The notes under the pieces are model-generated. The model had not been told where the DNA came from. It worked only from the letters and a program-made list of their open reading frames with translations, and searched no databases. A program made the translations under genes and the position numbers. A DNA stretch of 64,000 nt from Bacteroidales bacterium (GTDB lineage: Bacteria; Bacteroidota; Bacteroidia; Bacteroidales; F082): NCBI GenBank assembly GCA_024400455.1, contig JAKSMU010000004.1:1-64000 (forward strand), written 5' to 3'. This document shows, piece by piece, positions 1-9,023 of the stretch (position 1 is its first letter; each line of letters opens with the position of its first letter).

Positions 1-287
1 TATCGTCTTCAAAATAGCCTTCATCATTCATAAACTGGTAGAACCAGCCTATGCCGGCAAGACCGGAACAATGAGAGTAACCCCCACATTTGTATATATG
101 TTCGGGCAAAACACTCAATATTTCATTTACCTTTTGTCTGTACGCTTGATTTTCTACGGCATGAAGTGAATAAAACAAAGTTAAAGAAATTCCGGCAAGC
201 CGGAAAGAAGTCCCATATCATCTGTTTGCGCGTTATAGTTAAGCAGCAATTGGTATATGTCGCTTGTTTTGTTGTTTGGTATGACAT
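1..287 (-). pseudogene. LanC-like lanthionine cyclase, N-terminal part, apparently frameshifted and cut by window edge
   Basis: Translating the minus strand in two frames gives one continuous LanC-type N-terminus. The first frame reads KTSDIYQLLLNYNAQTDDMG followed by LLSGL and then stops. The adjacent frame continues AGISLTLFYSLHAVENQ and later GYSHCSGLAGIGWFYQF. Repeated GLxSGLAGI / HCSGLAGIGW motifs are typical of the LanC alpha/alpha barrel, which cyclises dehydrated peptides in lanthipeptide pathways. The frame change lies near 194-201 and looks like one missing base. A second problem sits at the start: the only ATG (287) is in another frame and the LanC frame has a stop just upstream. 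Either the gene is decaying or the assembly has indels in this AT-rich stretch. The rest of the gene lies left of the window. Confidence 0.6.
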
Positions 288-439
288 TGTTTTTTTATGA
301 TGAAATGTTCACATTTAGTTTGTATAATCGGCAAGAGTTATGTTTTTCACGGAACAATCAATTCCGAATTTCGTAAACCTATGTTGCGAGTCAAAAACAT
401 GTAGTATAATTTTGAACAGCTTCTTATGAATTTGAATGA

Positions 440-973
440 TTAGTTAGGAGTTCCCAACCAGATTAAATATATTGCACAGAAATCATACAAGAAATGAATA
501 AAAACAACAGAAATAAACGCATTTGTCTTTTTCTTTTTTGCTATGTAGTACGTGAATGCATATACTGTGCCTGCGAAAAAATGGCAAATAATTTGCAAAA
601 TATCTGTGATTAACATTCCGTCACAAACTGTAAAATGTCCCAACCCAAATAATACGGAACTTAATATAATGTATTTTGAGGGAGATATCAATTTCCCATT
701 TTTGCTAAAAGGATAATACAAGATAAATTGAAAAAAAAACGTTTCATAGATTGCTGAAAGGATAAGCCATACAGTTTTGTTTAAGAAACTAAATTCGTGA
801 ATTTCTTGTACGGGGATGTTGCTTTCCAATGAAAATATTCTGATGCATATTAACATTAGAACAAAAAAGAAAAGATGTACTAATGTAAGTGAAACAAATT
901 GAACGAAGATGAATTTGTGGTAAGGTAAATCCATCATTTTCTTTCTGTAAACAATCAAATATTTTCTTGCCAT
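440..973 (-). CDS. CPBP-family intramembrane protein (putative leader protease/immunity type)
   Basis: This 177-residue, strongly hydrophobic protein has about five membrane segments. It carries two of the three CPBP (Abi) motifs: FxxxH (F109 to H113) and HxxxD (H160 to D164). The first motif, usually EExxxR, is only ETFFFQ beginning at E77, so one glutamate and the arginine are missing and activity is uncertain. CPBP proteins act in membranes on prenylated or leader peptides and occur in bacteriocin clusters as processing or immunity proteins. Here the gene lies between the GG-leader precursor (ends at 1053) and the LanC-like remnant on the same strand, which fits a role in peptide maturation or self-protection. 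That role is inferred from position. Confidence 0.6.
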   Translation of the reverse strand: MARKYLIVYRKKMMDLPYHKFIFVQFVSLTLVHLFFFVLMLICIRIFSLESNIPVQEIHEFSFLNKTVWLILSAIYETFFFQFILYYPFSKNGKLISPSKYIILSSVLFGLGHFTVCDGMLITDILQIICHFFAGTVYAFTYYIAKKKKTNAFISVVFIHFLYDFCAIYLIWLGTPN

Positions 974-1006
974 AAGCCTTGCCGAAAATTTCTTTAAAGT
1001 TAGAAA

Positions 1007-1039
1007 GGGTGTGTCGAAAAATTGGCTTTTGACACACCC
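1007..1039 (-). terminator. Hairpin between RiPP precursor and CPBP gene
   Basis: GGGTGTGTC (1007-1015) pairs perfectly with GACACACCC (1031-1039) around a 15-base loop, and the minus-strand transcript continues into a short T-rich run. It sits 14 bases after the precursor stop. A partial terminator here would let the short precursor mRNA exceed the downstream maturation genes, as is common in peptide antibiotic operons. The stem is seen; the function is inferred. Confidence 0.55.
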
Positions 1040-1052
1040 ACTTGTGGCTTAT

Positions 1053-1289
1053 TTACACGCACTTAGCATGTGAAACATAATTTACTCCACAAAATTCAGA
1101 GCAGTATCTACTTTCACATCTATCATCTTGTTGAGACAAATGTGCTATTACAGTATCAATTATTTTGCCGGCTACATAACACTCAATAAAGTACATAGAG
1201 AAATTATACCCGCCTTTTATATCGTCCATATTTGAAAGGTTTGCCACAATCTGCTTGTTCAAAGCAAGTTTATTATTTTTCTTATTCAT
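1053..1289 (-). CDS. GG-leader RiPP precursor peptide (Bacteroidales natural-product precursor family)
   Basis: The peptide has 78 residues. Its leader NKLALNKQIVANLSNMDDIK ends in a GG at 26-27 and fits the Bacteroidales natural-product precursor pattern (TIGR04149-like: LNKxxIxxL...MxxIKGG). The predicted core after GG is 51 residues with five cysteines (C36, C58, C63, C67, C77) plus several Ser and one Thr, suitable for thioether or disulfide rings. The open frame extends upstream to 1580, but the leader consensus begins at the ATG at 1287-1289, so that start is chosen. The adjacent CPBP and LanC-like genes support a lanthipeptide-type pathway. No dehydratase or ABC peptidase transporter is visible, so those would have to lie left of the window or be absent. 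Confidence 0.75.
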   Translation of the reverse strand: MNKKNNKLALNKQIVANLSNMDDIKGGYNFSMYFIECYVAGKIIDTVIAHLSQQDDRCESRYCSEFCGVNYVSHAKCV

Positions 1290-1745
1290 AGTGAAATCTG
1301 TTTTAATGTTTGAGAACTTTGTTTTTCCACACCCGGCAGCCGTCCTGCCAATGTTGGAAGCGAAAAGGCTTCGCACAAAGCCGCCATAAGGCAACGGCAC
1401 TTCCTTACAGCCCCATGGCTGCAAGTACATAGAAATCATTCTTGCCAAGCCAATAGATGCTTGGCGCGGAAAGCATTTCGCCGCCACCCGAAAGAATGAT
1501 ATGAGACCTGCAAAGCGCATACGCCCTAAAGGGTTTAAAGATGGGGCGAAGATAGGAATTATTTTGGAACCTTGCAGCACGCGGCGCCATTTTCGCGGAA
1601 TTTTTTCCGTTTTCCTGTCTCGAGGGTTGTATGTGGCGCATTTTGTTCATCGCAAAATCTGCTTTTGTTTACGGAGCAAAGTTAAGGAAGCTCTTTGCTG
1701 CCTTTTACAAATGCGCCTAATTTGCTTGCAAACGCGCCCTGTTGT
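1290..1745 (-). other. Long hairpin-rich leader region of the RiPP operon
   Basis: There is no convincing gene in this 456-base gap. It holds a run of short perfect inverted repeats: GGCAG/CTGCC (1335-1349), GCGAA/TTCGC (1360-1374), CAGCC/GGCTG (1408-1421) and GCCAAGC/GCTTGGC (1444-1465). It is less AT-rich than the RiPP genes. With a promoter-like element at 1677-1684 the precursor mRNA would have a leader of roughly 380 bases. It may be a structured cis-regulatory RNA or an interspersed repeat; the sequence alone does not decide. Confidence 0.4.
1677..1684 (-). promoter_or_regulatory. Putative -7 element for the RiPP operon
   Basis: On the minus strand this reads TAACTTTG, matching the Bacteroidota -7 consensus TAnnTTTG. 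It lies between the LytTR gene and the RiPP precursor, about 390 bases before the precursor ATG. Confidence 0.4.
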
Positions 1746-2135
1746 TTAGGTGAACGCGCCTTTATCGTGTGTGAACGCGGCATATTCGGCCTTCACTTGG
1801 CTGCAACGGCGGTAGGCTATCTCAAGTTCCATCGTGCTGCCGTTGGCGCTTCGCAGCACCGCCGTCCATTTCTTGTCCTTAACATGGTGCAGGCTGGCAA
1901 TTTGCGCCATGTTCACCAAAAGGCTGCGGCTTATCAGCATGAAATGCGAGCCTTGCAGCCTTTCCTCAAAGAAAGACAGCTTGCGGGTACAGTCGTATCT
2001 CTGTCCGTCAGCCATAAACAAGGTGCAGAAATAGTCCTCACATTCTATATACAGGATGTCGTCTGCATCAATCCTGAACAGGCCTTTTCGGGTTTTCAAG
2101 ACTAATGTGCCATTGGTGTTGTCCGTCTTCTCCAT
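1746..2135 (-). CDS. Stand-alone LytTR-type DNA-binding regulator
   Basis: This 129-residue protein consists almost entirely of a LytTR domain, a mostly beta-strand DNA-binding fold. Recognisable family features are the opening GLFRIDADDILYIECEDYF, the central YDCTRKLSFFEERL and the segment HFMLISRSLLVNMAQI. It has no receiver domain, so it is not a classical response regulator; many Bacteroidota LytTR proteins of this size act without a cognate phosphorylation domain. Its stop is about 60 bases upstream of the promoter-like element of the RiPP locus on the same strand, so it may regulate that locus. That is inference from position only. Confidence 0.8.
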   Translation of the reverse strand: MEKTDNTNGTLVLKTRKGLFRIDADDILYIECEDYFCTLFMADGQRYDCTRKLSFFEERLQGSHFMLISRSLLVNMAQIASLHHVKDKKWTAVLRSANGSTMELEIAYRRCSQVKAEYAAFTHDKGAFT

Positions 2136-5235: not shown

Positions 5236-5563
5236 GGAAAAAACTTGGAAATGTTTTTTTAAAACGCCAATTGCTGCAAAGGAGCCATCAATGGACTTCC
5301 CCCTGGCAAAATTAGCAAGCACACAAAACTTTTCTCAACAAAATGTCCTCAAATCGCACGAAACGTATCAAATCGCACAAAAGACCATGTCGGGCAGCAG
5401 TACTTTTGCCGTGTGATTTGAAGACATGGCCTCTCGAACGGATCACGAAGGCATCACGAAGGAATGAAGTCCGAAAAACAAGCGGCTGAAGCGGGGAAGA
5501 AAGCCCAGACAAGCCGCTCCTTCCGCCGTGTCAAGTAGTGAGTTTCTTCGCTGTTTCTTCGGG

Positions 5564-5601
5564 GTTTCTTCGGTGATGCTTCGGTGAATGACCGAAGAAA
5601 C
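5564..5601. repeat. 11-bp perfect inverted repeat within TTTCTTCGG cluster
   Basis: GTTTCTTCGGT at 5564-5574 is the exact reverse complement of ACCGAAGAAAC at 5591-5601, with a 16-base loop. Partial extra copies flank both arms. Confidence 0.6.
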
Positions 5602-5904
5602 TCCGAAGAAAGTGTGCGGAAACGGCGAAAAAAGTGCGGCCTTGGTCACTTGTTGATACTATGTTGAGAGGACGCGATAAACCGGCATCTCTACATCAAA
5701 CTCTATACTTTTTCATTCAAATCTTTTTGAGAGTTTGTTTTTATTTAGGTGAGACAAATAACAATAGATTTCTTCCCTACGGTCGAAATGACATTGCAAT
5801 TTGTTTCATTCAAAAAAACCTATAGATACTCTCCTTCGTCGGTATGACATAAGTTTTTTTTGAAAAGTCAAAACAGATTTTGAAAGAAATCAAAAACAGT
5901 TCCG

Positions 5905-7604: not shown

Positions 7605-9023
7605 ATGGCAGGCAACCATATAGAAATATGGAATAAATGTTTATCGGTGATACAAGACAACATCGAGGCACAGAGCTTTGAAACTTGGTTCAAGCCCATC
7701 GTGCCCCTTGCGCTTGTCGACAACCTGCTTACCATTCAGGTACCGAGTCAGTTTGTATACGAATGGCTGGAGACCCACTACATTGAACTGCTGAAAAAAA
7801 CCATCAAGCGTGTGATTGGTCCCGACGGCAAACTTGACTACAGCATCATCATGGACAGCGGCGACAGCACTAGCACCATGAAGCTGCCAAGTTCGAACCG
7901 CACCGACCCAAAAAACCAATTGGGCCGTCCCGCTCCCGAAAAACTTTCCGATGGTCCGATGAATCCTTTCGTCATTCCAGGATTGAAGAAACTCGTCATC
8001 GACCCACAACTAAACGAAAACTACACCTTTGACAATTTCATCGAAGGCGAATGTAACCGCGTGGCCCGTCAGGGCGGTCTGGCAATTGCCAAAAATCCAG
8101 GCAAAACGGCTTACAATCCTTTACTTATTTACAGCAATACAGGTTTGGGAAAAACCCATCTTTGCCATGCCATCGGATTGGAAACCAAGCGTTTGCACCC
8201 AGAAACCACCGTACTGTATGTTCAAGCCGAACAATTCACCAACCAGTATATCACCGCATCGAAGAATAAAAACCTGAACGATTTCGTCCATTTCTACCAA
8301 ATGATCGATGTACTGATTATTGACGACATTCAGTTTTTGGCAAAAAAGACGATGACGCAGGAAACTTTCTTCCACATTTTCAATTACTTGCATCAAAACA
8401 ACAAGCAATTGGTCATTACGAGCGACAAGTTACCTGCCGACCTGCAAGACATGGAAGCACGATTGCTCTCGCGATTCAAATGGGGCTTGACCGCCGAACT
8501 GCAAATGCCCGACATTCCGACGCGTTTGGCCATTCTTCAGAACAAGCTTTACACCAACGGCATCGTCCTTTCCAACGAAGTGGTTGATTATCTTGCCTCT
8601 AATGTCAGGACCAATGTGCGCGAGCTGGAAGGCATTCTGATTTCGCTGGTTGCACAGTCATCGCTCAACAAGAAGACCATCACCCTCGATTTGACAAAGC
8701 AAATCATCGACCGCTTTATCCGCAACTCAGTGAAGGAAGTTTCGGTGGAATACATCGTTAATGTGGTTTGCGAATATTTCGGCATTTCAATCGACCAAAT
8801 AGCGTCAAGCTCAAGAAAACAGCAAGTCGTCCAGGCTCGTCAAGTGGCCATGTACCTCTCGAAAAAGCATTCAAGCGAAAGTCTGACTTCCATCGGAATG
8901 CAATGTGGCAAAAAAGACCACGCCACGGTGCACCATGCCTGCAAGACCATTTCTGACCGTTTGGAAACCGACAAGCAATTCAAGGCAACGCTTGCCGACA
9001 TCGAAAAGAGAATTTTATCATAA
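7605..9023 (+). CDS. dnaA: Chromosomal replication initiator DnaA
   Basis: The protein has 472 residues. Domain I begins at HIEIWNKCLSVIQDNIEAQS. The AAA+ domain has Walker A (SNTGLGKTHL) and Walker B (VLIIDDIQFL). The C-terminal domain IV carries the box-recognition signature CGKKDHATVHHACKTI. The open frame starts at 7557, but the ATG at 7605 matches the usual N-terminus and is preferred. DnaA binds the origin and melts it for helicase loading. The 210 bases upstream are AT-rich but show no clear cluster of DnaA boxes, so no origin is claimed. Confidence 0.97.
   Translation: MAGNHIEIWNKCLSVIQDNIEAQSFETWFKPIVPLALVDNLLTIQVPSQFVYEWLETHYIELLKKTIKRVIGPDGKLDYSIIMDSGDSTSTMKLPSSNRTDPKNQLGRPAPEKLSDGPMNPFVIPGLKKLVIDPQLNENYTFDNFIEGECNRVARQGGLAIAKNPGKTAYNPLLIYSNTGLGKTHLCHAIGLETKRLHPETTVLYVQAEQFTNQYITASKNKNLNDFVHFYQMIDVLIIDDIQFLAKKTMTQETFFHIFNYLHQNNKQLVITSDKLPADLQDMEARLLSRFKWGLTAELQMPDIPTRLAILQNKLYTNGIVLSNEVVDYLASNVRTNVRELEGILISLVAQSSLNKKTITLDLTKQIIDRFIRNSVKEVSVEYIVNVVCEYFGISIDQIASSSRKQQVVQARQVAMYLSKKHSSESLTSIGMQCGKKDHATVHHACKTISDRLETDKQFKATLADIEKRILS

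Follow-up and report, generated by a model that had tools for sequence, protein, structure and literature searches.

The start of the window, by which we mean the 64,000 bases analysed here (bases 1-64000 of contig C34), very probably holds one end of a class I lanthipeptide locus that has been inserted into the chromosome between dnaA and prmC. The contig measures 222 kb, position 1 is a true contig end, and the genome (2.9 Mb in 75 contigs) is 99.6% complete. Three minus-strand genes at this left end encode a LanA-type precursor, a CPBP/Rce1-like protein and a fragment of LanC (Table 1), and the GC content of positions 1-1300 was 0.328, against 0.448 for the whole window. A preliminary description had read positions 1-1290 as the edge of a lanthipeptide-type RiPP locus, with a GG-leader precursor, a CPBP-type protein and a LanC-like fragment on one strand of AT-rich DNA. 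Each of these elements was confirmed, the latter two by PF02517 and PF05147, and the reading of the locus gained support from a LanB, an elimination protein and a C39 transporter that occur together on contig C29 of the same genome. The dehydratase and the peptidase-containing ABC transporter that the description had proposed to seek were both found there, and the dnaA-prmC order places them left of C34. No relatives of the DNA at 1-1300 were found in plasmids. The end of C34 is unique rather than a simple repeat, and a collapsed repeat at the contig ends was not shown. The LytTR-domain protein is a possible regulator of the locus.

Table 1 Features of the lanthipeptide locus at the left end of the window and on contig C29
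Feature	Position	Strand	Length	Evidence
LytTR-domain DNA-binding protein	window 1746..2135	-	129 aa	PF04397, E 2.4e-14; 36% identity to the LytTR gene beside LanC on G088 contig C68
LanA-type precursor	window 1053..1289	-	78 aa	open reading frame; NF038153 below cut-off; LxLxKx5L; Ser/Cys order; leader alignment with LanB-adjacent precursors of other genomes
Precursor leader (LALNKQIVANL ... KGG)	window 1209-1289	-	27 aa	motif match
Precursor core (5 Cys, 5 Ser, 1 Thr)	window 1056-1208	-	51 aa
CPBP/Rce1-like intramembrane protein	window 440..973	-	177 aa	PF02517; 30% identity to G088 CPBP
LanC cyclase gene, N-terminal part, in two frames	window 1..294	-		PF05147; A3 model; collinear HMM match
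TonB-type outer-membrane protein, open at the contig end, gene start missing from the assembly	C29		790 aa
LanB N-domain (glutamylation protein)	C29		743 aa	PF04738, 478.7 bits
LanB C-domain (elimination protein)	C29		289 aa	PF14028, 225 bits; TIGR03891
C39-peptidase ABC transporter (PCAT)	C29		731 aa	PF03412, PF00664 and PF00005
HlyD-type adaptor	C29 (L006) 7760-8287		175 aa	homology to G088 HlyD
prmC, then an AAA ATPase	C29, after HlyD (prmC at C29:8349)

The leader of the precursor matches LxLxKx5L exactly and terminates in Gly-Gly, the leader type reported for class I LanAs of Bacteroidetes (Walker et al. 2020, PMC7268733). Combined with six Ser/Thr and five Cys in the core, this leader fits a class I precursor. 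The core composition given in the preliminary description (51 residues, five Cys, several Ser and one Thr) was confirmed, the Ser numbering five. In core numbering, Cys residues lie at 10, 31, 36, 40 and 50, Ser residues at 4, 25, 33, 37 and 46, and the Thr at 19, which gives the order S4 C10 T19 S25 C31 S33 C36 S37 C40 S46 C50. Each Cys is thereby provided with its own Ser or Thr no more than six residues upstream and past the preceding Cys, an arrangement matched by 0.34% of 200,000 core shuffles. The best leader family was NF038153 (lant_leader_L1a), aligned over its full model length with 18.5 bits (19.8 in the genome search), below the curated cut-off of 22 bits. A search of 149 genomes of the family returned no relatives of the precursor at E 0.001, and a Herpes_UL69 Pfam match on it (E 0.007, under the cut-off) was dismissed as chance.

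The preliminary description had expected a TIGR04149 leader (GG_sam_targ_CFB). This assignment was rejected, as the precursor scored 11.3 bits (E 1.1), far under the cut-off of 25, and carries the LxLxKx5L-GG leader instead. The weak score, together with a GG leader and a PCAT that are common to these peptide types, could also be read as a radical SAM (TIGR04149-type) GG peptide, or as an unmodified bacteriocin or signal peptide with an incidental LanC. However, the class I leader motif, the adjacent LanC, the linked LanB and the alternation of Ser and Cys in the core all argue against such a peptide, which we regard as extremely unlikely. Elsewhere in the genome, at C45:62027-62122 (L148), a 75-aa frame reached 22 bits with TIGR04149 (cut-off 25) and is possibly a separate GG-leader peptide.

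The LanC fragment (positions 2-196) scored 23.6 bits with PF05147, against a cut-off of 23.2. In an alignment model of Bacteroidota LanC proteins (397 positions) it matched positions 28-99 (E 1e-4), corresponding to the N-terminal quarter; that Pfam aligned it to positions 226-283 is probably due to internal repeats in the LanC fold. The gene is spread over two frames, with an upstream piece at about 199-294 and a downstream piece at about 2-205. The upstream residues 'SDIYQLLLNYNAQTDDMGLLSG' match model positions 6-30 in the other frame, while the downstream piece matches 33-95; the upstream match is weak by itself (2.3 bits) and its position is as expected for an intact gene. Because the two matches are collinear in different frames, the gene is frameshifted in this assembly, with the change at about 199-205 and no in-frame ATG upstream of it. 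The listed start, a TTG near position 178, was accordingly rejected as the true start, since the upstream part sits in another frame. The assembly lacks roughly three quarters of LanC, including the region of the Cys-Cys-His zinc ligands, which lies beyond the contig end, and neither Pfam nor the Bacteroidota LanC model detected a further piece in the genome.

Contig C29 comprises 11,467 bases and holds the only LanB of the genome. Its LanB genes constitute a dehydratase of the split form, for which use of glutamyl-tRNA is predicted. Ten residues with a known catalytic role in NisB (R83, R87, T89, D121, R784, R786, E823, R826, H961 and R966) were all identical at the aligned positions. The transporter fuses the C39 peptidase to the ABC membrane and ATPase domains in one protein and matches 4ry2, an ABC-type bacteriocin transporter, over its full length. 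The HlyD-type adaptor retains its membrane anchor and C-terminal part; its residues 55-175 match residues 321-441 of the 441-aa HlyD in genome G088, so that an in-frame stretch of about 265 internal residues is absent. The TonB-type gene may lie outside the pathway. Sequences related to it at the DNA level occur at other sites in the genome. Relatives of the C29 end reach only 70-73% identity.

C34 and C29 almost certainly adjoin each other, left end to left end, judging from gene order within the genus. Of 80 same-genus genomes sampled, most carry dnaA and prmC divergently on one contig, usually a few kb apart; in G138, for example, the order is dnaA, a YigZ-like frame, EamA and prmC, with no other gene between them. 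In the genome studied here dnaA (C34:7557) and prmC (C29:8349) each point away from the left end of their contig, and joining these ends restores the dnaA-prmC pair with the cluster in between; C29 was therefore placed directly left of C34. The possibility that C29 is a misbinned contig was rejected, as it carries the genome's only prmC. This prmC shows 88% identity to its counterpart in G090 and 91-92% (in two pieces) to the one in G133; judged by prmC or DnaA identity, these two are the closest species. DNA beside prmC in G090 and G133 matches C29 from base 8192 on (89.5% and 95%, respectively). Both keep the final 29 residues of this HlyD, 100% identical, beside prmC, with one common breakpoint that is adjoined by a DDE transposase gene (DDE_Tnp_1_3; L142:16906-17730 and L144:8372-9197). 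The identical tail and breakpoint suggest that the locus was present in the ancestor of the three species and was probably lost later from two of them, with an insertion sequence at the scar.

The junction of C34 and C29 falls in an assembly gap, and stand-alone LanC-like genes without LanB have been reported in Bacteroidales (2023 survey, PMC10352776). The two contigs might thus not adjoin, the precursor then lying in a separate remnant with a stand-alone LanC and no dehydratase. This arrangement is very unlikely: within the genus dnaA and prmC keep their relative order, two sister species retain the HlyD tail in the corresponding position, the genome has a single LanB and a single LanC, and G088 carries the cassette.

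The CPBP protein belongs to PF02517 (E 2.8e-9; 37.6 bits against a gathering cut-off of 22.4) and is 30% identical to a CPBP protein encoded between LanA and LanB in G088, which is of the same genus. Among 80 loci with related LanBs, a CPBP gene was detected only in these two. The catalytic EExxxR motif of PF02517 is absent from both aligned proteins, which read ETFFFQ here and ETLIFQ in G088; ETxxxQ thus replaces EExxxR, with the first Glu and FxxxH kept and with HxxxD. Such an alteration would fit a non-proteolytic or altered role, without proving it. In bacteriocin loci, proteins of the CAAX/CPBP type have been associated with immunity and, in the case of SilX, with signal-peptide processing instead (PMC9298176). 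Self-immunity is somewhat favoured here over an accessory protease, because the PCAT already removes the GG leader.

From the window into C29 the gene order reads LytTR, LanA, CPBP, LanC, the gap, the TonB-type gene, split LanB, PCAT and HlyD. In the predicted pathway, LanB would glutamylate Ser and Thr of the core via glutamyl-tRNA, the separate elimination protein would remove the glutamate to leave dehydroamino acids, and LanC would close lanthionine rings by adding the Cys thiols. For Bacteroidota peptides, co-expression with the native GluRS/tRNA-Glu pair has made full dehydration possible (PMC9993889). In its simplest form the pattern would comprise five non-overlapping rings, S4-C10, S25-C31, S33-C36, S37-C40 and S46-C50. 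The PCAT would then cleave after Gly-Gly and export the product, with the CPBP protein most likely conferring self-immunity. The product would probably be a small sulfur-bridged peptide with antibacterial activity.

Whether this strain makes the mature peptide is close to an even call, leaning slightly towards no. The LanC frameshift and the HlyD lacking its internal region imply that the copy may be decaying. Indeed, the locus could be a lanthipeptide locus by descent that is inactive here and yields no product, a variant of the main reading rather than an exclusive alternative. The LanC frame change without an upstream in-frame ATG, the shortened HlyD with its in-frame deletion, and the loss of the whole locus save the HlyD tail in two sister species all point in that direction. 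On the other side, LanA, CPBP, LanB, LanB_C and PCAT retain intact open frames. The LanC frameshift, moreover, lies about 200 bases from the end of the contig, in a region prone to assembly errors, and is possibly an artefact. On balance, inactivity is a substantial possibility that falls short of being expected. It is unlikely that all parts hold together as a working lanthipeptide system with an unrelated core, five small rings, export by a PCAT that is paired with a shortened HlyD without coiled-coil hairpin and with the TonB-type protein in place of a TolC route, and CPBP-based immunity.

The nearest named relatives of LanB were found in two Bacteroidales assemblies, G088 (horse faeces, JAKSNA010000035.1) and G014 (RUG079, where RUG denotes rumen genomes), which makes it likely that the genome studied here comes from a gut member of the Bacteroidales. 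G088 has the same LanC, LanA, CPBP, LanB, LanB_C, PCAT and HlyD genes, with LytTR beside the start of LanC. There, LanA through a full-length HlyD are contiguous, LanC is split at a contig end, and LytTR lies on the contig with the LanC start. The order is LanC-LanA-CPBP in G088, whereas it is LanA-CPBP-LanC here. Identities to G088 were 87% for PCAT, 63% for LanB_C, 60% for LanB, about 33% for LanA and 30% for CPBP; the values for PCAT, LanB and LanA would fit a faster turnover of the specificity genes than of the export gene. G014 holds LanB, LanB_C, LanA and PCAT. As a separate observation, LanA, CPBP and LanC are AT-rich both here and in G088 (GC 0.29-0.39), compared with 0.43-0.54 for LanB, LanB_C and PCAT; in G014 the GC content of LanA is 0.38 against 0.44-0.50.

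Among the 80 loci with related LanBs, clusters of LanC-LanB-LanB_C(-PCAT-HlyD) in Flavobacteriia and uncultured Bacteroidales showed the same enzyme set. LanB was followed by LanB_C in nearly all loci, PCAT and HlyD were present in many, and the order LanB, LanB_C, PCAT, HlyD was shared with many of them. In most, LanC lies directly upstream of LanB, whereas a TonB-type gene takes this place here. The pinensin cluster of Chitinophaga likewise contains a split LanB, the host in the present case probably being a gut Bacteroidales bacterium. The Bacteroidetes class I lanthipeptide systems of Walker et al. (PMC7268733) have in common with this locus the leader motif, Gly-Gly, LanC, LanB and the C39 transporter. 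They differ from it in that the precursor here is without a relative in 149 family genomes, CPBP lies between LanA and LanC, and the assembled copies of LanC and HlyD appear to be damaged.

The system type is already well known in Bacteroidota, although reports of it from the order concerned here are rare. A survey of 1,136 Bacteroidales genomes (2023) found no LanB and deemed lanthipeptide biosynthesis not common in the order (PMC10352776); against this absence, at least 12 of the 80 related-LanB records bear Bacteroidales, Prevotellaceae or Tannerella in their titles. In a rumen study, 19.2% of the lanthipeptides from MAGs were assigned to Bacteroidota (PMC8241843), and such clusters in gut Bacteroidota are therefore not new in themselves. 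The present data provide a genome from this order, together with several relatives that are uncultured, in which a split LanB with its catalytic residues conserved is accompanied by a class I leader peptide and a dedicated transporter. The occurrence of the locus in one species, with a remnant linked to an insertion sequence in two sister species, is as expected for a strain-competition trait. The locus also supplies a concrete peptide and enzyme set for expression.

Two further observations concern other parts of the genus and of the window. Same-genus genome G151 encodes at L057:6316-9141 a class II LanM (DUF4135 plus LanC-like, 941 aa) with a PCAT, an HlyD remnant of 50 aa beside the PCAT, and a CarboxypepD_reg-type protein, so that the genus includes two classes of lanthipeptide system. 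In the window, the intergenic stretches 1504-1593 and 5327-5700 recur in contigs of G133 at 82-93% identity, in part at different positions, and probably belong to an intergenic repeat that is dispersed in genomes of the genus; an inverted repeat of 58 bases lies at 5554-5611.
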